From IMG/VR virus record IMGVR_UViG_3300018080_000564, positions 1 to 25,029 of that record: 25,029 bases of DNA. One strand, written 5' to 3'. Of this stretch, positions 4,623 through 24,860 are shown piece after piece (within the stretch, counting starts at the first letter, position 1; each line of letters starts with the position of its first letter). This stretch comes from a virus. Below the pieces are notes generated by a model. The model was not told where the DNA came from and did not search any database. It saw only the letters and a list, made by a program, of their open reading frames with translations. The position numbers and the translations under genes were made by a program.

Positions 4623-5474
4623 TTAGCATGTTCCCCAGTTCTCCGTAGTCGCATAGCTCATAAGTGAAGCTTTCCAACCACCTTCTACTGCCTGCCACTT
4701 AATTGTGACATTACCATAATCAACTCCAGCAGTTATTGTAACATTAGTAAACTGGTTAATTGAAATATACGTTAATTTGAACATATCAGAAGCGTCGATT
4801 CCACCAACTACTGTTCCTGATGATATCGTACCAGCTTTATTCAAAATTGTATGATTCAACCATGGGTTCCAAGACCCATAAGTGTTTTTCACTTTAATTT
4901 CCTGTTTGGCCCCTGTAGATCCACGGAGGTCCAAAGTATTGCTTAGTGAATAAAACCTCCAGTATTCATTTGCACCAGCATCATCATAACTCATTGGACA
5001 GTAAATTTTACTCTCACCATTCTTCCAAGTTGATCCAAGGAATGCGTATTCAGTGGAGCTAGGTCCACTCCAACAAACTGTTACCTTAATCTGAGGATTA
5101 GTATTACCATCACAATTAACTCTCTCAAAAGGTTCACTTGAAGATGAGGATGACTCTCCATCTGAGCTTGAGGAGCTTTCTGAGTAACCTTCTGAGCTTG
5201 AACTAGACTCTGAGAAGTCTCCAGATGACGATGATGATGAGCTAGATGAGTTCGGAGCACTAGAACTAGAGCTAGAGTCCTTAGAACTGGATGATGATTC
5301 CCCAAATGAACTGGATGATGACTCCTGTAAACATGTAGTACAATCAGGATATACTCCTTGTACTTCACTAGGGTCAGTATTTACTGGGTCAGTCGTCTTC
5401 CCAATATGCTCATAACATACACCGTCGATTTGTATAACCGCTCCTTGAAATTCTCTTAATATTTTATCTGCCAT
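4623..5474 (-). CDS. Ser-rich adhesin-like tail protein, copy 3
   Basis: This 283-residue protein has three parts. Residues 1-48 are a small domain (MADKILREFQGAVIQIDGVCYEHIG ... DPSEVQGVYPDCTTC described in parts: VDG/IDG-x-C-Y, then DPSE and a C-x-x-C). Residues 51-113 are Ser runs broken by FGE, KD, APN, GDF and EGY. Residues 120-283 are a beta-rich domain beginning CDGNTNPQIKVTV and containing F-L-G-x-x-W-x-N-G-E-S-K-I-x-C-P and a final YGNVTIKW. Both end domains match the 5485-6462 protein closely. The Ser tract probably acts as a flexible linker and could be glycosylated. The role as a tail-tip or surface-binding protein is inferred from position after the baseplate genes. Confidence 0.65.
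   Translation of the reverse strand: MADKILREFQGAVIQIDGVCYEHIGKTTDPVNTDPSEVQGVYPDCTTCLQESSSSSFGESSSSSKDSSSSSSAPNSSSSSSSSSGDFSESSSSSEGYSESSSSSDGESSSSSSEPFERVNCDGNTNPQIKVTVCWSGPSSTEYAFLGSTWKNGESKIYCPMSYDDAGANEYWRFYSLSNTLDLRGSTGAKQEIKVKNTYGSWNPWLNHTILNKAGTISSGTVVGGIDASDMFKLTYISINQFTNVTITAGVDYGNVTIKWQAVEGGWKASLMSYATTENWGTC
5136..5324 (-). repeat. Ser-rich tract in the third adhesin-like gene
   Basis: This stretch encodes residues 51-113, mostly Ser in runs of 5-9 separated by short Gly/Glu/Asp units. The Ser codons are mixed (TCA, TCT, TCC, AGT, AGC), so it is not a simple homopolymer of one codon. Confidence 0.8.
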
Positions 5475-5484
5475 AATTCACTCT

Positions 5485-6462
5485 CTACGGACAAGCCGCT
5501 GTTGTTGTTCCACCAGTATAGGTTAGACCAGTTGCTTTCCAGTTCGACCAAGTTTCGTCACCAGAAGCCTGACCAGCAATAGGACTCCACTTAATAGTTA
5601 CATTGCCAAAATTTCCACCAGTATTGAAAGTACAATAACCAAATTGAGTCATATTAATTGAATTCCCAGTGCTTAGTCCTCCAGCACTAACGTCCTTCGA
5701 AACTGTGTTACTATTGTAACTAGTGTAATTTTGACTTACTGAGTGGTTCTTAAAAATCAAAAGGTTAGCATAATTACCAGTCGAAACATGAGTGTCTATA
5801 CCTACACCCTGTCTACCGCCATTACTGTTTGCATGGAGATACATATCGTATGATGCTGTTGCACTATAGACTTTTTGCCAGAACTCTTCTTGTGTGTCAG
5901 TTCCAAGTGTCCCACCAGAACCATCTCGATAAGTATCTGGACAAACTATCTTGCTCTCACCATTGCTCCAATCACCACCCATGAATGGGTAACTAGTTCC
6001 ACTACCTGTCCAGCAAATAGTTATCTTACATCTTGGGAAAGTGTTTCCAGAACAATTGAGCTTATCAAGTTCATTTCCACCTGAGCTTGAAGAACTCTCA
6101 CTAAAGCCTTCAGAAGAACTGGATGATGACTCACTAAAACCTTCTGAACTTGAAGACTCACTAACACCACCTGAAGATGAACTTTCGCTAAACCCTCCAG
6201 AAGATGATGATTCTGAGTTTCCTCCAGAAGATGAACTTTCACTATTTCCTCCAGAAGAACTAGATTCAGAGAATCCTCCAGAACTTGATGAGCCAGAGCT
6301 GGAACTGGAAACAACTGCGCATTCTTCACAGTCTGAAAAGACTCCCTCTATTTCACTAGGGTCTGTAGTAACTGGTTCTTTTACAAGTCCGATATAATAG
6401 TAACACTTTCCATCGACCCGAACAACATCGCCTTCGTAATTTGAAAATACTATATCAGCCAT
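5485..6462 (-). CDS. Ser-rich adhesin-like tail protein, copy 2
   Basis: This 325-residue protein has an N-terminal domain (1-50) homologous to that of the 4623-5474 protein, with VDGKCYYYIG, DPSEIEGV and the C-x-x-C in DCEEC. A tract at 52-129 is built of the nine-residue unit SESSSSGG followed by F, N or V. The C-terminal domain (about 137-325) begins CSGNTFPRCKITIC and shares FMGGDWSNGESKIVCP and FGNVTIKW with its paralogue. The ATG overlaps the upstream stop by one base (TAATG) and uses a GGAGG inside the upstream gene's last codons, so expression is coupled. It is likely a tail-tip or capsid surface protein; the binding target is unknown. Confidence 0.65.
   Translation of the reverse strand: MADIVFSNYEGDVVRVDGKCYYYIGLVKEPVTTDPSEIEGVFSDCEECAVVSSSSSGSSSSGGFSESSSSGGNSESSSSGGNSESSSSGGFSESSSSGGVSESSSSEGFSESSSSSSEGFSESSSSSGGNELDKLNCSGNTFPRCKITICWTGSGTSYPFMGGDWSNGESKIVCPDTYRDGSGGTLGTDTQEEFWQKVYSATASYDMYLHANSNGGRQGVGIDTHVSTGNYANLLIFKNHSVSQNYTSYNSNTVSKDVSAGGLSTGNSINMTQFGYCTFNTGGNFGNVTIKWSPIAGQASGDETWSNWKATGLTYTGGTTTAACP
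6076..6309 (-). repeat. 27-bp minisatellite encoding SESSSSGG-x units
   Basis: The stretch encodes about eight units of nine residues; most differ only at the last residue (F, N or V). Some neighbouring units also match closely at DNA level. It could change length by slippage or recombination, which would alter linker length without a frameshift. Confidence 0.8.
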
Positions 6463-7511
6463 TATGGACCTCCCCAGCTACCAGAGCCTCTTTCCCACTT
6501 AACAGTGAGTCCATTGTCACATGTCATTTGTCCAAATAACTCATCAGGTACATCACCAGGGTCACTCGTTACATCGAAAGTGGTCGGATTAATATTATAA
6601 GTGCTTAAATTGGAAGTTGAACGTTGGAAGAACTCTCTAGTGTCAGTGAATTTGTTTCTTGACCACTGTCCATAAGAACTCCATCCAGCTATCCCCGCTC
6701 CTACTCTAGCTCTACCGACTTGGTCAGTTTGTGAAACTGTTGCTCTTAGATATAAGAAGTCAGTACCAGCAGAACTAGGTGCTCTCCACCATTCGTTGTA
6801 TGTGAAAGTATTGTATGTATCATAGGAGTATCTACTAGTACATACCGCTTGCGTTACTCCGTTAGTGAAATCACAACCAAGGAAAGTAAAGTAATCTACT
6901 CCACTAGCAGTACCCGTTCTGTTGCTTGCGTTGATACCAGTAATAGTGACATGGACTCTAGGATTGGTATTGCCAGAGCAGTCTGGACATTCTAATACTC
7001 CAGGGTCAGTGCTCGAAGAGCTTGAATCAACAACTTCAGAACTTGATGATTCCGATACAGAAGATGAACTTTCACTATAGTCATCGGAAGAACTGGAATC
7101 AGATGTCGATGAATCAGATTCTGAAGTGCTAGATTCCGAATATCCCCCAGAGGAACTGCTGTCAGACTGCGATGATGATGATATACCCTCAGAGGTACTG
7201 CTGGATTCAGAGTTACCATCAGATGAGCTAGAACTGCTCTCACACAGTACATAACCATGATTCTCTTGAGAGGATGAGGATGACTCAGAAGTAAATCCAC
7301 CAGAAGAGCTAGATTCACTATTTCCTTCTGATGAAGATGATGATGAAATCAAACACTGAGCATAACGTTCATGGAGTTCAGTTGAAGAAGATGATGATAA
7401 TCCAAAAGAAGACGAAGAACTTGACGATTCATCACAAGTATAGGTTAAGTGTCCAGGTGTATTGTGTAACAAATGCCCAGTACTTGAATCATATTTTAGA
7501 TGATCCGCCAT
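6462..7511 (-). CDS. Ser-rich adhesin-like tail protein, copy 1
   Basis: This 349-residue protein has a short N-terminus (1-27) unlike the other two copies. A long Ser-rich region (29-167) is interrupted by small islands containing Cys (TELHERYAQCLI and QENHGYVLC). The C-terminal domain begins CPDCSGNTNPRVHVTI and carries FLGCDFTNG in place of the F-x-G-x-x-W-x-N-G of its paralogues, and it ends in LTVKWERGSGSWGGP. It is the most divergent of three tandem paralogues. GGGAG lies nine bases before the ATG. Long Ser-rich stalks separating a base from a distal domain resemble bacterial Ser-rich adhesins in layout, but I see no cell-wall anchor or signal peptide. A virion role is inferred. Confidence 0.65.
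   Translation of the reverse strand: MADHLKYDSSTGHLLHNTPGHLTYTCDESSSSSSSFGLSSSSSTELHERYAQCLISSSSSSEGNSESSSSGGFTSESSSSSQENHGYVLCESSSSSSDGNSESSSTSEGISSSSQSDSSSSGGYSESSTSESDSSTSDSSSSDDYSESSSSVSESSSSEVVDSSSSSTDPGVLECPDCSGNTNPRVHVTITGINASNRTGTASGVDYFTFLGCDFTNGVTQAVCTSRYSYDTYNTFTYNEWWRAPSSAGTDFLYLRATVSQTDQVGRARVGAGIAGWSSYGQWSRNKFTDTREFFQRSTSNLSTYNINPTTFDVTSDPGDVPDELFGQMTCDNGLTVKWERGSGSWGGP
7011..7427 (-). repeat. Long Ser-rich tract in the first adhesin-like gene
   Basis: This stretch encodes residues 29-167, with Ser runs separated by EGN, GGF, DGN, EGI, GGY, DDY and two Cys-containing islands. Codon choice for Ser is mixed. Confidence 0.8.
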
Positions 7512-8607: not shown

Positions 8608-9555
8608 TTAGAATGTTGTTGGAAGTCCCAAAACATCATAGTCACTTGCCGCTTGTAAACCAAACAACATCCAACGAGAATTCGCTATTCTTGTAGCAGG
8701 GTCATTACCTGCAACTGGATCACCTGCTCCATCAAGTGGTACTGGCTGGTTAGGTAAAGCACCATTCTTCCAACGAATTACTTTTCCATTTGCTCTCTGC
8801 CATCCAGCATCCAATATCTTAGCTAAGTGAGAATGAGGGTCCCAGAGGATTTGGAAGTTAGTGTCATAATACTCTTCACCATTGTTCTCAGTCTTTGTTA
8901 CTCGAATATCCTCAATATAGAATTCATATTTGTCACCATCCAATCCAGCTATAGTAACAGAATCGTCATTACAGACAGTCACATAACTCTGAAGCTCTTT
9001 TATATTTGAAATAGTGCCAATGTCTGTTATGTTAGCGAAGTTCTTTTGCAGGTTGATCCTCACTTTATTAAGATATTGTGGTGGAGTTGGGTCGAATGGG
9101 TATCCAGCAGAATTGAAGACAAGTCTGTTTGCCGCAGTGTCGATAAATTTACCAGCAGGTAATCCACTGTCGATACCAGCAGTAGCTGTTCTTGAATATT
9201 GTGGAAACTGCTGAACAACAGCAGATGAGAATGTAATATTCCAAGGTCTTGAAGTTGGTAAGCCATACCAAAACTTGTCGCTTTCATAATCACATCTGAT
9301 TTGATAGAATTTCAGTTCCTTCTCTGCTTCGAATACTTCGACTGTATGCTCAAACAGTATCAAGTCCGTACTTGTACCCGAATAAGCTGATCCAACGTCA
9401 GGAAGACCCGCTGTAACAGCGTCAGAGACCAATGAATCTAGGTCAGTATAACTGGTATTGGAATAAACAAAATAAGCTTTTACACCAGTTTGCTGACCAT
9501 TTACGTCATTTACATATTCTCTCTGAAAATTTTGTTGTAAAAAGGTGATAGCCAT
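8608..9555 (-). CDS. Probable distal tail or baseplate protein
   Basis: This 315-residue protein is encoded directly after the tape measure gene, the usual position of the distal tail protein. AAGGAG lies five bases before the ATG. The sequence is beta-rich with no membrane segment. It contains a Trp-rich patch (FWYGLPTSRPW) near residue 100 and a C-terminal LDAGWQRANGKVIRWKN. I see no clear sequence match to the Dit family, so the call rests on gene order. An alternative is a tail-tip hub protein. Confidence 0.55.
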   Translation of the reverse strand: MAITFLQQNFQREYVNDVNGQQTGVKAYFVYSNTSYTDLDSLVSDAVTAGLPDVGSAYSGTSTDLILFEHTVEVFEAEKELKFYQIRCDYESDKFWYGLPTSRPWNITFSSAVVQQFPQYSRTATAGIDSGLPAGKFIDTAANRLVFNSAGYPFDPTPPQYLNKVRINLQKNFANITDIGTISNIKELQSYVTVCNDDSVTIAGLDGDKYEFYIEDIRVTKTENNGEEYYDTNFQILWDPHSHLAKILDAGWQRANGKVIRWKNGALPNQPVPLDGAGDPVAGNDPATRIANSRWMLFGLQAASDYDVLGLPTTF

Positions 9556-15103: not shown

Positions 15104-15136
15104 TAAAAAAAGGGAAGTAGATTTCTCTACTTCCCT
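15104..15136 (-). terminator. Strong rho-independent terminator after the capsid genes
   Basis: On the minus strand AGGGAAGTAGA, a GAAA loop and TCTACTTCCCT form an 11-bp perfect stem followed by seven T (15110-15104). It lies 18 bases past the stop codon of the second capsid gene. Transcripts from the terminase side should largely end here, so the tail genes need readthrough, antitermination or their own promoter. Confidence 0.9.
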
Positions 15137-15153
15137 CTATAGTCAATGTAAGC

Positions 15154-16395
15154 TTATGCGCTTGAGCTTGAGGATTCGTTTTCAGATCCACGAGGTGCGA
15201 TAGTAATAAAGTCAGCCGTAACTGTACCACCATCAACTGTGATTTTCTGAGAACAAACTTTTCCACCAACTTTTGCAGTGAACTTGTAAGCAACTTCGTC
15301 GTTCAAGAAACGAACATGTGAAGAAGTAGCAAGCTTCAAACCACCCTTAGAGGCGATTCTGTAACCATCCTGCATATTTGCGAGAATTACGTCCCCATCT
15401 TCACCCAAAGTTGGGCAGTGGTTGGAAACATAAATAGGAAGACCCAAAAGGGTTCCATAAGGGCTTCCACCCATGTCCTTGCTAGGCGACATCCACAGTC
15501 TGTTCCCTGCACTATCTTCTAGATTTCTGAGAGCGGCCCACGCTTCGCGTCCGCAGATGAAAACGGACTTGTTCAAGTCCTTAGCGGCAACCATCATATT
15601 GTCGATGTCTTCAACGTCGATGTTAGGAGTTGCAGTACTCTTAGGAGTAATCTGAACAGTTCCAGCACTTCCGATAATACCAGTAAAAGCGGTATCACCG
15701 TTGATAATTCCCGCCTCGAATTTCTTGCTGAATTCGACGGGGGCTTGATTCAAAATCTCCGAAACGAGCAATCCAGTATCAGCAAGGGCTTCTTCACTAG
15801 CGTAGAACATGTAAGTTGCTTTAACGAGTGAAATGCTGTACTGAGTAACAGTAGGCTGTTTAACGTCGATACTAGCACTTTCGTTCTCATAATTAACGAC
15901 AGTGCTTGAACTGTTCATAGCTGTTACGGTATTGTACTTATAGACATTGTCGGTGCCATTAAGAACAACCTGTCTAGCAAGCTGAGCAATACCACTATCG
16001 CCAAGCAAATCAACGTCGATTTGAGGGTCAGTGAGTTCAGTAGTAGCGTATCCACCCTGTGAGTCTGTTCCTACGGTAATTGCCTTCTCTTCGACCAATT
16101 TTTCAACTGACTTAGTGGCAACAGCCTTCAGGAATTCACCAAAGGAAACACCTTTCTTTTCAGCATTCGCTTTTGGAGCGAACTGAGAGAATGACTCTCT
16201 GATAGCTTCTTGAATGCCCTTCGTATCGACAGCGACAATAACGTCATTGTCTTCTTCAACATGAGCTTCAATTTTGCCATCTTCGACCAATGACTTAGCG
16301 TCATTTTCATCGAGTTCAACAAGGTCACCCTTATTGTAGATTTCACTGTTAAGTGCAAACTGCTTCTTAACAATATAAGTATATTTAACTTCCAT
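15154..16395 (-). CDS. Major capsid protein, HK97 fold, second copy
   Basis: This 413-residue protein is paralogous to the gene just upstream (16577-17893), with about half of the residues identical by eye in the core. Residues 1-90 form a delta-like region (MEVKYTYIVKKQFAL, IYNKGDLVELDENDA) that would serve as scaffold and be removed by the prohead protease. The HK97-type core contains EKAITVGTDSQGGYATTELTD, NGDTAFTGIIGSAGT and a GTLLGLPIYVSNHCP segment. The C-terminus ends in a short Ser tag (ENESSSSSA). AGAGG lies upstream of the ATG. It is expected in the capsid lattice, possibly in a different role (for example pentamers) from the first copy. Confidence 0.88.
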   Translation of the reverse strand: MEVKYTYIVKKQFALNSEIYNKGDLVELDENDAKSLVEDGKIEAHVEEDNDVIVAVDTKGIQEAIRESFSQFAPKANAEKKGVSFGEFLKAVATKSVEKLVEEKAITVGTDSQGGYATTELTDPQIDVDLLGDSGIAQLARQVVLNGTDNVYKYNTVTAMNSSSTVVNYENESASIDVKQPTVTQYSISLVKATYMFYASEEALADTGLLVSEILNQAPVEFSKKFEAGIINGDTAFTGIIGSAGTVQITPKSTATPNIDVEDIDNMMVAAKDLNKSVFICGREAWAALRNLEDSAGNRLWMSPSKDMGGSPYGTLLGLPIYVSNHCPTLGEDGDVILANMQDGYRIASKGGLKLATSSHVRFLNDEVAYKFTAKVGGKVCSQKITVDGGTVTADFITIAPRGSENESSSSSA

Positions 16396-16450
16396 TTTGT
16401 AAACCTCTATGTTTATCTTAGGTTTTTCTTTTTGTGGTGTTCTGGATGTT

Positions 16451-16484
16451 TAGGGGTTGCCTACTTTCCGATTTCCACTTCTTA
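16451..16484 (-). promoter_or_regulatory. Leader element shared by both capsid genes (copy 2)
   Basis: The minus-strand leader of the second capsid gene contains GAAGTGGAAATC, GGAAAGTAGGCAACCCCTA in order. The leader of the first gene has the same arrangement (17941-17974). The core AGGCAACCCCTA is identical. It lies 56 bases before the start codon and may be a regulator binding site or leftover of the gene duplication. Confidence 0.6.
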
Positions 16485-16526
16485 ATTATTTTTAATTGTC
16501 AAATGAAGGGGAGGTTTACTGCCCTA

Positions 16527-16552
16527 AATTGGGGTTAGATCTAACCCCAATT
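16527..16552. promoter_or_regulatory. 26-bp perfect palindrome between the two capsid genes
   Basis: Each arm is AATTGGGGTTAGA (16527-16539) and its exact complement (16540-16552). No T tract follows on the minus strand. It lies 25 bases past the first capsid gene's stop. As RNA it would form a long hairpin with a very small loop, suited to stabilising or attenuating; as DNA it could be a dimer operator. Confidence 0.7.
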
Positions 16553-16576
16553 CTCCCCTAAATTTAACTTAATTCA

Positions 16577-17893
16577 CTACGCAGAACTAGAACTTTCTGA
16601 ATAATCTTCTGAGCTAGAACTGGATGTCGAGTCTGAGCTAGATGAGCTAGAGCTAGATGAGCTAGAGTCTACTGAACTAGATGAGCTAGATGAGCTAGAT
16701 CCAAATTCAGCATCGCCTCTATCAGCCAAGACAACAAAGTCAGCAAGTGTTTCTGAATCAGAAGTAGTTAACTTAACTGAGCAAGGCTTTCCACCTAATC
16801 TCCAAGTCATCTTCAACGTTTCCTCGTCATTCAAGTAACGGTAATGAGTGCTAGATGCAACTTTCATACCCTTGGATGCGATTCTGTAACGGTTAGGTGA
16901 GCAGAGGATGAGGTCTCCTACCTGGCCTACCTGAGGTGAAGCATTGGATACCAATACTGGGATACCTCTGAGACGACCAAAACGAGTTCCGTCCATTTCC
17001 CACATCTTATCTCCCTCTTCATTCTTGAGGTAAATAAGTTGCTCAAATGCACTTCTGGAACATACCCAAACAGCAGTTCTCATATTCTTGATAGCGGCCA
17101 TCATCTTGTCGATATTTTCACTCTGAATTGTTGAGTCAGTCTGAGAAGTTTCAGGACTAACAACCAAAGTTGCACTACTACCTACGATACCAGTAAAAGC
17201 ACTATCGCCATTAATCATACCGTTTTCAATAAGCTTCTCTACCTCTTCAGGTAATTGAGCTACGATTTCTTGTACCAAGCTTGCCGTATCTTCTGCGGCT
17301 TCAGAACTCACATACATTGCGAAAGTTGCCTTAATAAGTGAGATTTCAAACTGAACAAGTCTAGGTTGTTTAACAGAAATTGCTCCTGACTCAGCTACAT
17401 AACTAATTACAGTTCCGCCAGTGTCGAGTGAATCCAATAAATTGAATTTATAGGTATTGTTCGTACCACTCAATGTAATTGTAGTAGCTAACTGAGCCAA
17501 TCCACTGGATGCAATTAGATCAACGTCTACGTCACTGTCAGTGAGAGAAGTTGCACAGAAGCCGCCTTGAGCGTCTGTTCCTACCGTTATTGCTTTCTGT
17601 TCTACTAATTTATCAACACTATTGGTTGAAATAGCTTTCAAGAATTCAGGGAAAGTGGCTTTCTCTTCGTTCTTTGGAGCATATTTATCCAAACTGTTTC
17701 TAAGGACATCTTCGATACCTTTAGTGTCGATTACCTGGTTGTGGATTTCTTTCTCAAGATGAGGTAAAATCCTACCCTTCTGAATATGAGATTCAGCATC
17801 TTGATGAGTGAGTTCCAAAATATCTCCTTTTTGGTAAATTTCTTCACCAATCGCAAACATTTTTTGCGCTTCATAAGTGTACTTAATTTTCAT
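16577..17893 (-). CDS. Major capsid protein, HK97 fold, first copy, Ser-rich C-terminal tail
   Basis: This 438-residue protein has a delta-like N-terminus (about 1-85: MKIKYTYEAQKMFAI, EIYQKGDILELTHQDAE), then an HK97-type core with EQKAITVGTDAQGGF, NGDSAFTGIVGSSATL, FGRLRGIPVLVSNASP and IASKGMKVASSTHYRYL. The last 40 or so residues are nearly all Ser, with VD, DST and EDYSE breaks. GTTTAAAAATG with AAAGG upstream sets the start. It shares its 5' leader motif with the second copy. The tail sits at the C-terminus, which in HK97-type capsids tends to be surface-exposed, so the Ser tag may coat the capsid; that is inference. Confidence 0.9.
   Translation of the reverse strand: MKIKYTYEAQKMFAIGEEIYQKGDILELTHQDAESHIQKGRILPHLEKEIHNQVIDTKGIEDVLRNSLDKYAPKNEEKATFPEFLKAISTNSVDKLVEQKAITVGTDAQGGFCATSLTDSDVDVDLIASSGLAQLATTITLSGTNNTYKFNLLDSLDTGGTVISYVAESGAISVKQPRLVQFEISLIKATFAMYVSSEAAEDTASLVQEIVAQLPEEVEKLIENGMINGDSAFTGIVGSSATLVVSPETSQTDSTIQSENIDKMMAAIKNMRTAVWVCSRSAFEQLIYLKNEEGDKMWEMDGTRFGRLRGIPVLVSNASPQVGQVGDLILCSPNRYRIASKGMKVASSTHYRYLNDEETLKMTWRLGGKPCSVKLTTSDSETLADFVVLADRGDAEFGSSSSSSSSSVDSSSSSSSSSSSDSTSSSSSEDYSESSSSA
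16580..16700 (-). repeat. Ser-rich tail-coding repeat of the first capsid gene
   Basis: The 3' end of the gene is built largely from the repeated 9-mer GAGCTAGAT and its variants on the plus strand, which encode Ser runs on the minus strand. The short repeat makes copy-number change likely without frameshift. Confidence 0.75.
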
Positions 17894-17940
17894 TTTTAAA
17901 CCTTTTTGGTTTTCATCTCATTCGTGGGGTATTTGGGGTG

Positions 17941-17974
17941 TAGGGGTTGCCTATTCCATATTTACCACTTCTTG
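17941..17974 (-). promoter_or_regulatory. Leader element shared by both capsid genes (copy 1)
   Basis: This minus-strand sequence in the leader of the first capsid gene contains GAAGTGGTAAATATGGAA followed by TAGGCAACCCCTA. It aligns with 16451-16484 over about 34 bases. It lies 48 bases before the start codon. Confidence 0.6.
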
Positions 17975-17993
17975 AGTAGTTATCTTCTTCTTT

Positions 17994-18020
17994 CATTGGA
18001 GTGTATCATACTCCCCAATG
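17994..18020 (-). promoter_or_regulatory. Hairpin spanning the prohead protease stop codon
   Basis: On the plus strand CATTGGAGT and ACTCC-CC-AATG pair around GTATCAT, with a two-base bulge. The minus-strand stop codon TGA (18008-18006) lies in the loop. No T tract follows, so it is probably not a terminator. Confidence 0.5.
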
Positions 18021-19061
18021 CAAAATCTTCCTTAATTCGAGTTGCATCTTCTTCTTTCTTTCCTCTTCAGTGGAAAGTCTCTTGATAGTAGGTGCTCTCT
18101 TTACTATCCTAATGTCAATCTGCTTATCTTCTTTCACTTCAACAAAGTCAGTCTCTTCTTCAACCTCTTCCTCAAAGAAAAGCTCCTCAACTTCCTCTAT
18201 AGGCTCTTCTTTAGGCTCTTCTTTAGTCTCTATGGCTTTAGGTTCGTCTTCTGCCATTACTTCCTCTATAGCCTCTTCAATAGCATCTTGAGCCTCTTCT
18301 TGAGCCTCTTCTTGAGCCTCTTCTTGAGCCTCTTCATTGAAGATAGTTTCTTCAAGTGGAATCCAACCATCTTCGTCAGTAGGTTCTTCCGTAATACTCT
18401 TCCACTCTTCCAACTTTACTTCAGGGTTTTCTTTCTTCAGTGACTTAATTTCTTCGATAACTGCATGCTCATTGGCAGGCAGAGTTACCACTGAGTATTC
18501 TACAAGAAGTGACTTTGTGATAATTCTATTAACATCAGCAACATTAGTGACATTGAACCTATCTGGATACATATTAGCAAGTTTCTGCAATACTTCTGCG
18601 AATCCACGATCCTGCTTAGTAATTGCCTCAAGTGTAATAAATCCAACTGAATGGGTCCTAAGTACCTTATCAACTAATAATTGGTGGATTTTCTGAGCTT
18701 CTGGAGTCTTCCCATAACGAGTTTTAGCCAGGATATCAACGTCATTCACTTTTATTTTCTCGGCTCTACCAATTGGATTATCAAGTGAATGGTTAAAGAG
18801 AACAACAGGGTTCTTTTTGTAACGTTCAAGTGAGATACCAGCGGGGATCACAATATCTCCATCGGAATCAACGTCTAAAGTTGTAATTTTTCCAATACTG
18901 TACTGGTTATCATCATGAGGTACAGGATTCTCATATTCATCATCATAGAACACCTGTTTTCTTTCAATAACTTTCCCCTCAATCTGATTCCACTCTTTGT
19001 CAGTGAAGTCAAGACCAAGCTTCTTCAAGTGTATTCTATTCGCTTTAATTTTATTCTTCAT
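18006..19061 (-). CDS. Prohead protease with long acidic C-terminal extension
   Basis: This 351-residue protein has an S78/HK97-type protease domain in residues 1-205: DSDGDIVIPAGISLERY, the catalytic His91 in LFNHSLDNPIG, and Ser138 in RTHSVGFI. The rest (about 206-351) is rich in Glu, with four EEAQ units (243-258), further EEP and EEV blocks, then a basic KRAPTIKRLSTEEERKKK end. Usual HK97-type proteases have about 200-230 residues, so the tail is an addition of some 130 residues. It may act as scaffold or as an interaction region with the capsid delta domain. AGAGG lies before the ATG, and the start overlaps the portal stop by 11 bases. Confidence 0.88.
   Translation of the reverse strand: MKNKIKANRIHLKKLGLDFTDKEWNQIEGKVIERKQVFYDDEYENPVPHDDNQYSIGKITTLDVDSDGDIVIPAGISLERYKKNPVVLFNHSLDNPIGRAEKIKVNDVDILAKTRYGKTPEAQKIHQLLVDKVLRTHSVGFITLEAITKQDRGFAEVLQKLANMYPDRFNVTNVADVNRIITKSLLVEYSVVTLPANEHAVIEEIKSLKKENPEVKLEEWKSITEEPTDEDGWIPLEETIFNEEAQEEAQEEAQEEAQDAIEEAIEEVMAEDEPKAIETKEEPKEEPIEEVEELFFEEEVEEETDFVEVKEDKQIDIRIVKRAPTIKRLSTEEERKKKMQLELRKILHWGV
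18288..18335 (-). repeat. 12-bp tandem repeat encoding EEAQ units
   Basis: AGCCTCTTCTTG on the plus strand is repeated in tandem about four times (18291-18302, 18303-18314, 18315-18326, then a partial copy). The units encode four EEAQ repeats in the acidic tail of the protease. Confidence 0.8.
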
Positions 19062-20322
19062 TTGACACCTCTTTAGGTTCAGATTGTTTAGGCTTCATAA
19101 GCTCATCAGCTTCTGGTGATTCAATTCTGGAATAACCATATGCAGTTCTTAACTCATTCAAACTAAGTGCTCCAGAATTAGCCAGGAATTCAGTTTCTTT
19201 TTGCTTCTGGTCAATATCAACTGGAGCGTCTTTGTGCAATATAACAAACACTTCTTTACCGTCAATACTGTTAGGTTTGATAAGTTGGTTGGTCAGTGTT
19301 TGTGCGATTAGTTTGAGTCTAGGCTTTAGAGTGTTTTGATGATAATTTACTTGAGCGGCTACCATATTACTCCTATTCACATTTTCAGTAAGAATGAGTG
19401 CTGGATTAATACCAAAACAACTGAAGATTTGGTTTTGAGAATATTTCCTACCCTCTAACCACTGCATCTCCTTAGGTGAAATACCTAAGATATCATATTC
19501 CATGTCCTTGCCTAGTACCAAAGTTTTTCCACTACGTCCAACACTTGAGAACTTACGATTCCAATAGCCTTCAACAGCTTCTCTGTCTTTCTCTCTAATT
19601 TGAGATTCTTGCATTTTGAGAACACCAGTAGGTACTCCCATATTTCTGTTAATAGCTTGTTCGTAGATATCTGCACTCTCAATGAGTCCATTAGCTGTTG
19701 CACATGCTTGTAATGGAGAAATACCATAGTGCTGAGTGTTATCTGGGTCGAAAAACTTGAAGTGAATGACATCTTGTTTATTCAATTGGTGTTGATATTT
19801 ACCATTCAAGTATTTACCATAGCCATAATAGTCGATTTCACCATAACCATCTTGAACAATGGTAACTGCTTGTGAGTATAGTACAGTTAGCTCAATTGGG
19901 ATACCATTAGGTGCTCTGGATATATATACGTAGCTATCCCCAGTCAACTCTAAGTAGGTTTGGATTTTGTAAAGGAAAGAGTAGAATGAATCATCCTCAT
20001 TTGGTTTAGCAAGTAGGTCGAGAATAGGGTGACTCATTACTTCACTTGCGTTAGTTTCTATGTTCATTGACTTCAACTCTTTCTGATTTACCTTTCTCAC
20101 TCTTGTTTGAGGATTTTGTTTAGTGGTAAATAACCTAAAGTTTGCGTCTGCAACGTTTTGTGCATTATAGTTTGAGCAAGTATAAATCCAACCTCTGTAT
20201 TTTTGAGTGGAAGTACTATCAGAGTATGGGGAACCTATCTCAGGTCGTACAATTTCGCAAAGCTTTCTGACCACTGTTGCGTCATTCACACTCTTCTTTT
20301 TGAGAAAATCAAAAATCTTCAT
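19051..20322 (-). CDS. Portal protein, HK97 family
   Basis: This 423-residue protein starts MKIFDFLKKK at 20322. A GAGG lies six bases before that ATG; the earlier ATG at 20334 itself overlaps the ribosome binding site and is rejected. Family features include the N-terminal KYRGWIYTCSNYNAQNVAD, a central SPLQACATANGL, and the CFGINPALILTENVNRSNM region, then a Leu-rich helix ending LTNQLIKP. The protein forms the dodecameric ring through which DNA is packaged. It follows the large terminase gene and overlaps the protease gene by 11 bases. Confidence 0.92.
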   Translation of the reverse strand: MKIFDFLKKKSVNDATVVRKLCEIVRPEIGSPYSDSTSTQKYRGWIYTCSNYNAQNVADANFRLFTTKQNPQTRVRKVNQKELKSMNIETNASEVMSHPILDLLAKPNEDDSFYSFLYKIQTYLELTGDSYVYISRAPNGIPIELTVLYSQAVTIVQDGYGEIDYYGYGKYLNGKYQHQLNKQDVIHFKFFDPDNTQHYGISPLQACATANGLIESADIYEQAINRNMGVPTGVLKMQESQIREKDREAVEGYWNRKFSSVGRSGKTLVLGKDMEYDILGISPKEMQWLEGRKYSQNQIFSCFGINPALILTENVNRSNMVAAQVNYHQNTLKPRLKLIAQTLTNQLIKPNSIDGKEVFVILHKDAPVDIDQKQKETEFLANSGALSLNELRTAYGYSRIESPEADELMKPKQSEPKEVSNEE

Positions 20323-20336
20323 GTAATACCTCATTT

Positions 20337-20365: not shown

Positions 20366-21628
20366 CTACGTCAAAGCATAGTCATCTGGATTAACGAAGT
20401 TAACTTCATTTTTTAGGTACTGTATCGCATATACCATTGCGTCAAGTGCGTTAGGCGAATCACCAACACCTGAATAGGTTACCATTTGGTCCTCTAAATC
20501 AGAAAAGTTTCCACAGTGTTTGACCAATTTATTTTTATAGAGTCCAGCTACTGGCTCTGCACGTAAAAGCTTGCCTTTAGTGGCTCTGACTCCGCTTATA
20601 TACACAGAAGGATCGTGATTGTTTATCAGGTTACTTACCCAATCAGCCCCTTGATTTGTTTCAAATATTAGTTTTGCACAGTTATACTCATGATAGAGTT
20701 CTGCCACTTCCTGTGCGATAACATTAATATCCTCTTTCTTTTCATAACACCTTAGGATATGATAATCATCATAGAGTTTTGCGGCTACACATATTCCATG
20801 AGCGTCAGATTTCTTTTTATTAGTGACAGCAGGATCAAAGGCAACAACTATATAGTCATATTCATCTAATTCGAGTGGTTCTGCTCTTTGGATATCATCT
20901 TGTTCCCATAGTGCTCCATGTATTTCGTCATAAAATGTTTTTCCGCCACACATCAGCTTACTTCGTCTATCTCCAGCATTCATTAGAGTGGAGATATATT
21001 CTTCATGGTCGATATGCTTGTTATCTTCAGTTAGGAATTCAAGTAATCCACATTTCTGATTATGTTTTGCTTTAGTTTCTGGGTTCACTTCATCAACGAA
21101 GAAGTGTTTTAACCAACTTGTTTTAGGTGCCCAGTTAGCCGCTGTTATTATTTTGATTCGATAATCAACACCAACAGGTTGTGGAGTTCTTGTTAGAAGA
21201 AGTCCTATATACTCATAATCAACTAAATGAGCTTCATCTACGAATATTGTGGCCCATTGGGTACTGAGGATCTTATTTCGGCGTGTTTTATCGTCTAAGC
21301 CTTTTATTACGATCCTCGAACCATTATGGAATGTTATCTCATATGTTGATTTATTGAGAGAGAAGCCTTCTACAAACGGAAGAGCAGGAAAGAAGTTGGA
21401 TATAACCTCTGGTATTGTGATTTTCCAGATACCATCTACTGCTGATTGAAGAGTGTTACGAAATACAGCATGATTAGTATTTGGATATAGGATAGCTCGT
21501 TTGAAAAGCAAATACATAATGGCAATCGTCTTACCACTTCTCCCCTGTCCAATGAGACAAGTGTATTTGTTATATTCAACTAATTTGAGGGCAGATTTCT
21601 GCTTGTCTGAAAGTGTCCAGGTCTTCAT
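20366..21628 (-). CDS. Terminase large subunit (ATPase and nuclease)
   Basis: This 420-residue protein has Walker A GQGRSGKT (27-34), Walker B TIFVDEAH (Asp131, Glu132), and an RNase H-type nuclease with AFDPAV (Asp265), FETNQGADW (Glu323) and ALDAMVYA (Asp396). These are the ATPase motor and the DNA-cutting domain of the packaging machine. Length is usual for the family. AAGGGG lies just before the ATG. The gene follows the small terminase gene by 31 bases. Confidence 0.95.
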   Translation of the reverse strand: MKTWTLSDKQKSALKLVEYNKYTCLIGQGRSGKTIAIMYLLFKRAILYPNTNHAVFRNTLQSAVDGIWKITIPEVISNFFPALPFVEGFSLNKSTYEITFHNGSRIVIKGLDDKTRRNKILSTQWATIFVDEAHLVDYEYIGLLLTRTPQPVGVDYRIKIITAANWAPKTSWLKHFFVDEVNPETKAKHNQKCGLLEFLTEDNKHIDHEEYISTLMNAGDRRSKLMCGGKTFYDEIHGALWEQDDIQRAEPLELDEYDYIVVAFDPAVTNKKKSDAHGICVAAKLYDDYHILRCYEKKEDINVIAQEVAELYHEYNCAKLIFETNQGADWVSNLINNHDPSVYISGVRATKGKLLRAEPVAGLYKNKLVKHCGNFSDLEDQMVTYSGVGDSPNALDAMVYAIQYLKNEVNFVNPDDYALT

Positions 21629-21659: not shown

Positions 21660-22016
21660 TTAAGACTCTGCTGAGTCTATCATCTTATCGAGTAGGTTAA
21701 TGAGTTGTGATTGAACGTCCTCTCCCTGTTGTTCCTTAAATGGGCTTCTAGGAGAATGTTTGAGGATAAATTCACTAACTCTTGCGGCAACATTTTGGTC
21801 ATGAGAATTCATTAATTCTATTAGTCTATGCTGTGCTTTATCACATAGCTCATCTGCTATTTTATTGAACTCCTCCAGTACATCTGGGTATTTGTGAACG
21901 AATTTCTTAGCAGTTACCGAGGATCTAACTTTCAATAATTTAGCAACGGAAGTATATGTACCGTCTGAATCAAGTACCGCTTCCTTTATTTGCGTTTTAG
22001 AAAATTTGTAGGCCAT
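21660..22016 (-). CDS. Terminase small subunit
   Basis: This 118-residue protein has an N-terminal helix-turn-helix (SVAKLLKVRSSVTAKKFVHKYP, about residues 23-44) and a helical oligomerisation region with DQNVAARVSEFILKHSPRSPF. The protein recognises the packaging site and recruits the large subunit. AGAGGTG lies before the ATG. The gene is the first of the late operon after the structured RNA block. Confidence 0.85.
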   Translation of the reverse strand: MAYKFSKTQIKEAVLDSDGTYTSVAKLLKVRSSVTAKKFVHKYPDVLEEFNKIADELCDKAQHRLIELMNSHDQNVAARVSEFILKHSPRSPFKEQQGEDVQSQLINLLDKMIDSAES

Positions 22017-22066
22017 AATACACCTCTAGTTGTTTTTTCTTACCTATAGGGGATTTGTCAAGAAGG

Positions 22067-22111
22067 AAAAAAGGCGAGCCTAGTAAGTGTGCATGCATCC
22101 TAGACTCGCCT
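22067..22111 (-). terminator. Rho-independent terminator before the terminase genes
   Basis: On the minus strand AGGCGAG-T-CTAG and CTAG-G-CTCGCCT form a 12-position stem with one mismatch and a 16-base loop, directly followed by five more T. It ends the transcript of the upstream genes and of the structured RNA. Confidence 0.85.
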
Positions 22112-22293
22112 ATATGTCAAGCAAAGGAGTAAAATGGCAAACCTAAACCAAGGTTTCTCAACCGAAGGTTTCGGCCCTTTGCTAGTTGAGAGGAAATGTC
22201 GAAACCTCTCAATATGTCGGGTTATGAGTGCTAACTTGGAGTGCCCGACATTTGTAGCTCATACCAAAACATAACCAATAGGAGCTTTGAGCT
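22067..22293 (-). ncRNA. Candidate structured RNA with own promoter and terminator
   Basis: About 227 nt lie between a near-consensus promoter and a terminator, with no convincing coding frame. Perfect stems in RNA order: 22297-22288/22261-22252 (10 bp, the first few bases lie before the likely +1), 22251-22244/22221-22214 (8 bp), 22212-22205/22193-22186 (8 bp), then 22182-22176/22127-22121 (7 bp) enclosing two small hairpins, 22174-22170/22166-22162 and 22156-22151/22144-22139, then the terminator. The first two stems abut, so they can stack. Their loops are complementary (TTATG/CATAA). It could be a processive antitermination leader like HK022 put or the lambda 6S region, a packaging RNA or site, or a trans-acting RNA. 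I do not match it to a known RNA family. Confidence 0.6.
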
Positions 22294-22299
22294 ACAACT

Positions 22300-22329
22300 A
22301 TTATAACTTGAAAATCTGATATTTTCCAA
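22300..22329 (-). promoter_or_regulatory. Near-consensus promoter of the structured RNA (candidate late promoter)
   Basis: On the minus strand TTGGAA (22329-22324) is 18 bases from a perfect TATAAT (22305-22300). The stop codon TAA of the upstream helix-turn-helix gene lies within TATAAT. The predicted start is near the A at 22293, at the first hairpin. Confidence 0.65.
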
Positions 22330-22795
22330 TTATTTTCTTTCTCTGTACCGCTTTTTTTACTGTTTCGTAATTTAGATCCTGCTCTGTACTCCACTCCTTA
22401 AGAGTATCATAGTATTGTAGTTTTTGTGTTTCGATATTTAGGATCATCCACTTTTTTGATTTACATTCTGGAACTAGTGACTTCACTTTATTCTTTTGTG
22501 TCCTCATAATATGATACAGGTCTGGATAGCTGTATCTGATTTTTTCCCTCCATATTCTTATAATCTCATGAGATGTATGACATTGGTGACCTACTTCTCT
22601 AAGTGTCATTCCCGCCATTAAGCACATATATGCCTGTAGTCTTCTCATGTCTCCCTTTGAAGACTCTATGAGTCTTGATATGATTAATCTGACATCACCA
22701 TTTTCTTGTTCTTGTTTTTCTTCGTCGTTGTAAATATTTGGTTCATAGTATGACTGAGTCAGTGCGTATTTATAGTACTCACTCTCCTCTGCCAT
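22301..22795 (-). CDS. Helix-turn-helix protein with NUMOD-like tail, possible late regulator
   Basis: This 164-residue protein starts MAEESEYYKY; longer upstream starts at 22858 or 22849 overlap the neighbouring small gene and have weak ribosome binding sites. The middle holds a helix-turn-helix (RLQAYMCLMAGMTLREVGHQ, then CHTSHEIIRIWREKIR). The C-terminal 50 residues (WMILNIETQKLQYYDTLKEWS, then NYETVKKAVQRKKIIGKYQIF) resemble the NUMOD1-type DNA-binding modules of homing nucleases. Two DNA-binding parts without a nuclease motif suggest a transcription or DNA regulator. Its stop codon is part of the -10 of the next promoter, so it is the gene directly before the presumed late control region, as Q is in lambda. 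The link is positional only. Confidence 0.6.
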   Translation of the reverse strand: MAEESEYYKYALTQSYYEPNIYNDEEKQEQENGDVRLIISRLIESSKGDMRRLQAYMCLMAGMTLREVGHQCHTSHEIIRIWREKIRYSYPDLYHIMRTQKNKVKSLVPECKSKKWMILNIETQKLQYYDTLKEWSTEQDLNYETVKKAVQRKKIIGKYQIFKL

Positions 22796-22955
22796 TCTTC
22801 GTTTCCATTTTTGTAAGAAAATTAGGTGTATTTTTGAATGGAGTTTCATCCAAACCAAGTAAAAACCTATATCTCCTGTTCTCCTCCATTAGTTTGTCGC
22901 ACTGTTCTTTAATGAGTGCTAAATCCTCACTTATTTGTTTTACTAGTTCTGACAC
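22779..22955 (-). CDS. Small coiled-coil protein with GTG start, 58 residues
   Basis: The frame reads MSELVKQISEDLALIKEQC and then KLMEENRRYRFLLGLDE, with GTG at 22955 and GGAGG nine bases upstream. The first 30 residues have a heptad pattern. The stop TGA lies 14 bases inside the start of the next gene, and the 5' end overlaps the preceding gene by 29 bases. I do not recognise it. The ribosome binding site and amphipathic pattern make it more likely than chance. Confidence 0.5.
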   Translation of the reverse strand: MSELVKQISEDLALIKEQCDKLMEENRRYRFLLGLDETPFKNTPNFLTKMETKNGRGE

Positions 22956-23886: not shown

Positions 23887-24324
23887 TTAGAAAAATTCGT
23901 TAATTATATTACTTTCGATTGTTTCATTTTTTATCACCAATTCCAGTTCCATGGTGTCTCCACAATCATACATTGAGGACATTATATATCCACAGAATGT
24001 AATTATATCGTCATCCAACATTATGGAGAAAGTAACAAGAGCGCCTCTAACGAACATAACCGACTCCCTCATTGAGTTCTTTTTCAGTTTAATCTCCACA
24101 ATAACTCTTGTTTGCTCATATCCAGAGTGAATATTGTGAGTATGCATTGTAGTTGTCACATTTATTGTTCGATAGTTTACCAAATCGTAAATTTCGTCAG
24201 CTATTCTTATCTGATTATTGTATAGGGTGTCTCCTCGGAAGATGATTCCTATATTATTGTGAACAACTGTAGGTCCGATTATAGGTTCGATATGAGTAGT
24301 TATGTCTAGGATAGCTGATTTCAT
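23887..24324 (-). CDS. Beta-rich protein, unknown
   Basis: This 145-residue protein starts MKSAILDITTHIEP at 24324, nine bases after GGAGG; the ATG six codons earlier lies before that site. The start overlaps the stop of the preceding gene (ATGA), which confirms the choice. The sequence alternates hydrophobic and polar residues, with many Ile, Thr and Val. No domain recognised. Confidence 0.6.
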   Translation of the reverse strand: MKSAILDITTHIEPIIGPTVVHNNIGIIFRGDTLYNNQIRIADEIYDLVNYRTINVTTTMHTHNIHSGYEQTRVIVEIKLKKNSMRESVMFVRGALVTFSIMLDDDIITFCGYIMSSMYDCGDTMELELVIKNETIESNIINEFF

Positions 24325-24860
24325 TTTAGATCCTCCATACATTGCAGTCTTTTTATGATTTCGTCACTGTATTTGTATTTTCTCAGGTGATCTACGAACC
24401 AGAAGGCTAGGATATCGTCATTGACATCATCTACTCTATCTGGTGGAGTTCTGGTGATATCTACTACATATACTCCTTTTTGGAATGTTCTATGAGTAGT
24501 TGTTTTATTTGTGGTATGAACAAAGAAGATATAGAACCTATTACCACCTTGGTATGCGAGTTCTTTATATTCTTGATAATGGTGGTAATCATATCCTGTT
24601 TGGATAATTCCATTCCAATCTACCCACTTTTTCTTTTGCTTACTATCTACGTGATATGTACGTCCTCCACGTTTTACTTCGAAGTCTGGAATAGAATATT
24701 GACTTGTTTTTGAGAAATACTTTGGTGAGTTTGGTAACATACCTAATTGAAACATAGGTTTTACCAATACATCCTCTTTCTCGATTAATACATCAAACAA
24801 CACTCTTTCTACCTCCAGACCTTTATTGAAACTGTTAGTGAATTCCTTATGGCTCGACAT
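24321..24860 (-). CDS. PD-(D/E)xK-like nuclease
   Basis: This 179-residue protein has a GLEVERVLF helix with Glu16, then IPDF (Asp59), then YHVDSKQKKKW with Asp72 and Lys74. This gives the E...PD...DxK spacing of restriction-like nucleases such as phage Holliday-junction or recombination nucleases. A Tyr-rich helix (GYDYHHYQEYKELA) follows. The exact function cannot be told. GGAG lies eight bases before the ATG and falls in one arm of a hairpin (24869-24892). It overlaps the 48-residue frame upstream by 52 bases. Confidence 0.55.
   Translation of the reverse strand: MSSHKEFTNSFNKGLEVERVLFDVLIEKEDVLVKPMFQLGMLPNSPKYFSKTSQYSIPDFEVKRGGRTYHVDSKQKKKWVDWNGIIQTGYDYHHYQEYKELAYQGGNRFYIFFVHTTNKTTTHRTFQKGVYVVDITRTPPDRVDDVNDDILAFWFVDHLRKYKYSDEIIKRLQCMEDLK

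Follow-up and report, generated by a model that had tools for sequence, protein, structure and literature searches.

In phage lambda the Q gene is followed by the promoter pR', a leader of about 200 nt (the 6S RNA), the terminator tR' and the late genes. The put RNA of phage HK022 contacts the beta' zinc-binding domain of RNA polymerase, and cos and pac packaging sites frequently adjoin the small terminase gene (terS). In the Q system a direct-repeat element bound by Q lies between the -35 and -10 of the promoter, and a -10-like pause sequence follows shortly after transcription begins (PMC6606751); HK022 put elements are about 70 nt long, form two stem-loops in early transcripts and act without a protein (PMC9378689).

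The DNA analysed here (the window) is the entire 25,029-base IMG/VR record IMGVR_UViG_3300018080_000564, from an uncultured virus of bacteria; it is probably a partial genome. Its G+C content is 38.6%, and its minus strand carries nearly all of the genes. On that strand the order is TTGGAA-18-TATAAT, about 230 nt with five hairpins (the fifth being an intrinsic terminator), a terS candidate, the large terminase gene (terL) and the portal gene; genes for a protease, two capsid proteins and the tail lie farther 3', and small genes without family matches lie 5' of the locus. A first-pass annotation had described a regulator-like gene, a promoter, a structured RNA, a terminator and late genes in that order, and they are indeed so arranged, in the same layout as lambda Q-pR'-tR'. 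The features of the locus, all on the minus strand, are as follows:

22301-22858, minus: upstream ORF, 185 aa from TTG 22858 (ATG at 22849 and 22795), candidate small DNA-binding protein (ORF call)
22300-22329, minus: putative sigma70-type promoter TTGGAA-18-TATAAT, 10/12 hexamer match (consensus match only)
22252-22297, minus: hairpin H1, 10-bp perfect stem, arms 22297-22288/22261-22252 (folding, inverted repeats)
22214-22251, minus: hairpin H2, 8-bp perfect stem, arms 22251-22244/22221-22214 (folding, inverted repeats)
22186-22212, minus: hairpin H3, 8-bp perfect stem and 11-nt loop, arms 22212-22205/22193-22186 (folding, inverted repeats)
22120-22183, minus: hairpin H4, 8-bp outer stem AGCAAAGG/CCUUUGCU enclosing two hairpins, arms 22183-22176/22127-22120 (folding)
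22120-22140, minus: anti-start-site UUGCCAUUUUACUCCUUUGCU, 3' side of H4, predicted to pair with the Shine-Dalgarno and AUG of terS upon read-through (folding)
22115-22120, minus: second TTGACA, in the linker between H4 and the terminator (hexamer enrichment)
22067-22111, minus: intrinsic terminator, 12-bp stem, 16-nt loop with the palindrome UGCAUGCA, U6 (sequence, folding)
22056-22061, minus: TTGACA, 3' of the terminator and 45 nt ahead of terS (hexamer enrichment)
22022-22027, minus: Shine-Dalgarno AGAGGT of terS (sequence)
21660-22016, minus: candidate terS, 118 aa (position and size)
20366-21628, minus: large terminase TerL (Pfam Terminase_6C and Terminase_3, PHROG 979)
19051-20334, minus: portal protein (Pfam Phage_portal)

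Both terminase subunits had been placed 3' of the terminator; by its Pfam and PHROG matches TerL is certain, and terS is a candidate by position and size alone, its protein giving no family match in Pfam, NCBIfam and PHROG searches. The helix-turn-helix assignment of the upstream protein survives on a weak PHROG match (E 0.045) and a low-confidence AF2 model (pLDDT 56, with a helical core). The protein has no match in Pfam, NCBIfam and PDB sequences; a Foldseek search with that model gave no match below E 0.7, and divergence from the Q family beyond detection is possible. Farther upstream, ORF 24321-24860 contains PDFEVKR...HVDSKQKKKW, a PD...K-like pattern that hints at a nuclease, and has no family match.

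The promoter match is where it had been described, at 22329-22300 on the minus strand (-35 TTGGAA at 22329-22324, an 18-nt spacer, -10 TATAAT at 22305-22300), and the stop codon of the upstream gene (TAA, 22303-22301) does lie inside the -10 hexamer. Taken alone the match is weak, as comparable ones are no commoner in the window (44) than in shuffles (40), and it gains some weight because it is placed directly 5' of the first hairpin. The elements expected of a sigma70-type transcription unit are thus all found in the sequence: 10/12 hexamer positions with an 18-nt spacer at one end, and a 12-bp stem with U6 at the other. The terminator stem (arms 22111-22100/22083-22072) has one G-U pair and is followed by T6 at 22072-22067; the hairpin has a calculated energy of -20.3 kcal/mol and ends about 45-50 nt before the terS start. 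The 8-nt palindrome UGCAUGCA in its loop (22084-22099) could permit dimer (kissing) contacts. A second, very strong terminator (15109-15138, 13-bp stem and T7) lies 3' of the second capsid gene, within the late operon; when folds across the window are compared with shuffles, this one stands out as the most stable (z -8.2).

The RNA between promoter and terminator had been described as about 227 nt rich in perfect stems, and it contains four perfect stems of 8-10 bp ahead of the 12-bp terminator stem. The minimum free energy of 22055-22296 is -78.5, compared with -57.8 +/- 4.2 for shuffles (0/200 shuffles as low); the resulting z of -4.9 (-3.9 with the terminator left out) by itself overstates the case, because coding-strand DNA of this phage already has a tendency to fold (mean z -0.8, sd 1.5). 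The count of inverted repeats is a better statistic: 10 perfect ones of at least 7 bp are present, and 300 shuffles gave a mean of 0.77 and a maximum of 4. When 620 windows taken from the record were ranked by repeat density, the top four all lay over this locus. The plus strand folds equally well (-80.3 vs -78.5 for the minus strand) because nearly all pairs are Watson-Crick, and so the minus strand was chosen not by fold energy but by the promoter, the terminator U-run, the single G-U pair of the terminator and the gene direction.

Folding of successively longer prefixes of the RNA shows the five hairpins arising in order and staying stable up to the terminator, with no lasting co-transcriptional rearrangement ahead of it. 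The H1 and H2 loops are mutually complementary (GGUUAUG/CAUAACC) and could pair, and the H3 loop is complementary to portions of H2 and H4. A type III toxin-antitoxin locus (repeat RNA, terminator, toxin) was ruled out; tandem repeats are absent and the next gene is terS. From the computed anatomy of the unit we infer transcription and termination here, and consider it likely that a structured, terminated RNA is made at this locus.

What might such an RNA do to the gene that follows it? In the predicted terminated RNA, CCUUUGCU, which adjoins UUGCCAUUUUACUCC, closes hairpin 4. When the read-through leader is folded, H4 opens at about 285 nt and its 3' side moves to the Shine-Dalgarno and AUG of terS, a pairing with a predicted probability of about 0.98; this masked fold is 2.9 kcal/mol better than the fold in which H4 is held closed, and the probability that the Shine-Dalgarno is unpaired is 0.15, vs 0.42 when the leader begins 3' of the terminator. 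The mirrored start-site pattern AAGGAG-N3-7-ATG occurs once on the plus strand of the window, at this locus, and the anti-start-site is present in only 1.3% of RNA shuffles (a statistic chosen after the fold was seen). Fourteen of 100 shuffled leaders hide the Shine-Dalgarno equally well, so the masking is only moderately unusual, and the anti-start-site segment pairs better with three other gene starts (9555, 5474 and 6462). Because masking is not rare in shuffles and other starts are better partners, roles in cis and in trans are both possible.

The reading that we tentatively place first, at less than even odds, is a cis-acting leader of the packaging operon that would keep terS off through termination and start masking, as follows. 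The promoter overlapping the 3' end of the upstream gene would make a structured RNA of about 228 nt, whose default 3' end would be the intrinsic terminator 45 nt before terS. The halt of transcription there would be a first layer of repression; a second would act upon read-through, when the 3' side of H4 would change partner and, if the predicted swap takes place in vivo, cover the start codon of terS together with its Shine-Dalgarno. Under this scheme, late expression would depend either on a factor that modifies polymerase or translation or on a late promoter 3' of the terminator. The complete promoter-hairpins-terminator unit, in gene direction and immediately 5' of terS, supports such a leader, as do the excess of stems over shuffles, the ordered formation of the hairpins and the predicted change of partner. 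Against it, the masking is only moderately unusual and other starts are better partners, the terminator stem has no competing antiterminator hairpin (neither inverted repeats nor prefix folding gave an upstream sequence whose pairing would relieve it), and the downstream TTGACA could start terS.

A near-equal rival of the cis leader, possible though a little less probable, is an independent noncoding RNA that ends at the terminator and acts in trans, either as an antisense of ribosome-binding sites through the anti-start-site or by binding protein, with terS and the late genes on their own late promoters marked by TTGACA. The unit does close with a strong terminator, and of all segments of the RNA the one around 22143-22120 binds translation starts best: 5/33 starts fall below the 1% control level, the best being that of the tail gene starting at 9555 (-21.7 kcal/mol), although an anti-Shine-Dalgarno of any kind pairs with many starts and these scores leave out target accessibility. 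TTGACA is the most enriched intergenic hexamer of the coding strand, with 8/11 copies in the 7.8% of the sequence that is intergenic (Fisher p 1e-7); these copies all precede late genes and none precedes the upstream genes. On the minus strand it stands at 22120, 22061, 20365, 16502, 14151, 12882, 11655, 4438 and 3192, often no more than 20 nt past a stop codon and beside a hairpin. Two copies flank the terminator of the locus, one of them between it and terS, and TTGACT at 15146 and 15103 flanks the strong terminator 15138-15109. No consistent -10 was found after the TTGACA sites, and by eye no -10-like hexamer is seen at the usual spacing after the copy between terminator and terS. The sites are therefore not callable as promoters; TTGACA is possibly a late-promoter or RNA element, and terS may be transcribed from its own late promoter 3' of the terminator, an option absent from the earlier read-through model.

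That model, a late switch with controlled read-through into the structural genes, keeps its support from the layout and loses it elsewhere: no antiterminator, Q family member or close Q-site signature was found, and read-through is predicted to hide the terS start. Read-through control is accordingly possible and is not favoured over an independent RNA. Its more specific form, in which the upstream protein or the RNA makes polymerase ignore this and later terminators as in Q- or put-type late antitermination, is unlikely. The lambda gene order fits it, as does the strong terminator 15138-15109, whose position within the late operon processive antitermination would account for, and a terminated leader does lie, by sequence and folding, between the putative late promoter and the late genes. 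But there is no Q-family match, the promoter gave no direct repeat reaching 5/6 when scanned at periods of 8, 10 and 11, and the first 40 nt past the -10 contain no NANNAT; the best -10-like hexamer of the initial transcribed region is TATGTT, 26 nt after the -10. Nor does a put element, with its length of about 70 nt and two stem-loops, resemble this RNA, and read-through would mask terS. More doubtful still, in our view, is a switch of a kind not seen before that has no relation to Q or put: one arm of the five-hairpin RNA would close its own hairpin in the terminated RNA or cover the terS start in the read-through RNA, and loop-loop contacts and the upstream protein might exert control. The locus is a good candidate for an orphan RNA of known kind rather than a demonstrated new switch.

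A DNA-level element, either a cos/pac packaging site or a cluster of operators whose inverted repeats are read in double-stranded DNA, is improbable. The locus adjoins terS, its stems are nearly all perfect Watson-Crick and both strands fold alike, but the promoter and U-run suit an RNA made from one strand, and the stems differ in sequence among themselves and so are not repeated sites of one protein. Least probable of all, indeed very improbable, is a small plus-strand gene (22134-22274) whose start signal, read on the minus strand, is the anti-start-site UUGCCAUUUUACUCC: its perfect Shine-Dalgarno (AAAGGAG-TAAA-ATG) and 46 open codons occur together in only 0.08% of shuffles, but we do not take it as a gene because its codon use matches out-of-frame DNA (score -0.13, equal to the out-of-frame mean of -0.13 and 3.6 sd under in-frame fragments), and it has no plus-strand promoter match nearby upstream and no family match.

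Relatives of the locus were sought through both RNA and proteins. The region has no Rfam match up to E 5. Searches with the RNA, by blastn in phages and plasmids and by single 17-mers (one in IMG/VR, the other in GTDB genomes), returned unrelated short exact matches and no relative of the RNA in IMG/VR, GTDB genomes, GenBank phages or plasmids. TerL, portal, the two capsid proteins, the tape measure and the upstream protein have no close relative in IMG/VR; TerL was also searched against GTDB genomes, and a TerL profile collected 80 loci. The protein searches gave only very distant TerLs and portals, none accompanied by the RNA, the upstream protein or this TerS; none of the three is present at the locus of the best TerL relative, which shares 35% identity. 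A gap of at least 150 nt lies upstream of terS in 36/63 distant-relative loci, and repeat density comparable to that found here occurs in one of the 63 (L023). The L023 gap (712-977) is AT-rich, has a z of -5.0 and lies about 1.6 kb before terL; it is composed of GTAATAAT-type repeats (GTAATAAT/TTATTAC) and is unrelated in sequence. Covariation evidence for the RNA is lacking because no relative turned up in these collections.

Elsewhere in the record, two HK97-type major capsid genes that are 48% identical lie in tandem (16577-17893 and 15154-16395). By eye, their leaders (17894-18005 and 16396-16576) have in common the stretch AAGAAGTGG...TAGGCAACCCCTA...AACC...GGTTT ahead of the start, perhaps a regulatory element of the capsid genes. 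In the tail region (4623-7511) there are three similar proteins with long serine-rich (SSSSE-type) stretches.

If real, the locus would be a compact control point that times production of the phage packaging machinery, and a plan like that of lambda, with a leader and terminator ahead of the late genes, would recur in a phage where neither Q nor put is recognisable. The RNA would also exemplify structured phage RNAs that are invisible to comparative methods because they have no sequenced relatives.

How does this RNA compare with the described systems? With lambda pR'-tR' it has in common the order of regulator gene, promoter, RNA of about 200 nt, intrinsic terminator and late genes; it differs from the Q system in that no Q homolog, Q-binding repeat or early -10-like pause site was detected, and it adds the predicted masking of a start site. 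Stem-loops early in a phage transcript and upstream of a terminator are shared with HK022 put, whereas here four hairpins extend over about 180 nt and are followed by their own terminator; this distinction is one of size and layout. As far as tested, then, the RNA lies outside the put and Q groups. Leader attenuators and riboregulators that hide ribosome-binding sites likewise combine a terminator before the first gene with an alternative pairing over its start site, but this RNA has no terminator/antiterminator pair and no known ligand domain in Rfam. The phi29 packaging RNA is also a phage-encoded structured RNA adjoining packaging genes; the TerL encoded here, however, is of the Terminase_3/Terminase_6C type and not a phi29-type packaging ATPase, and its neighbouring RNA is without an Rfam match.
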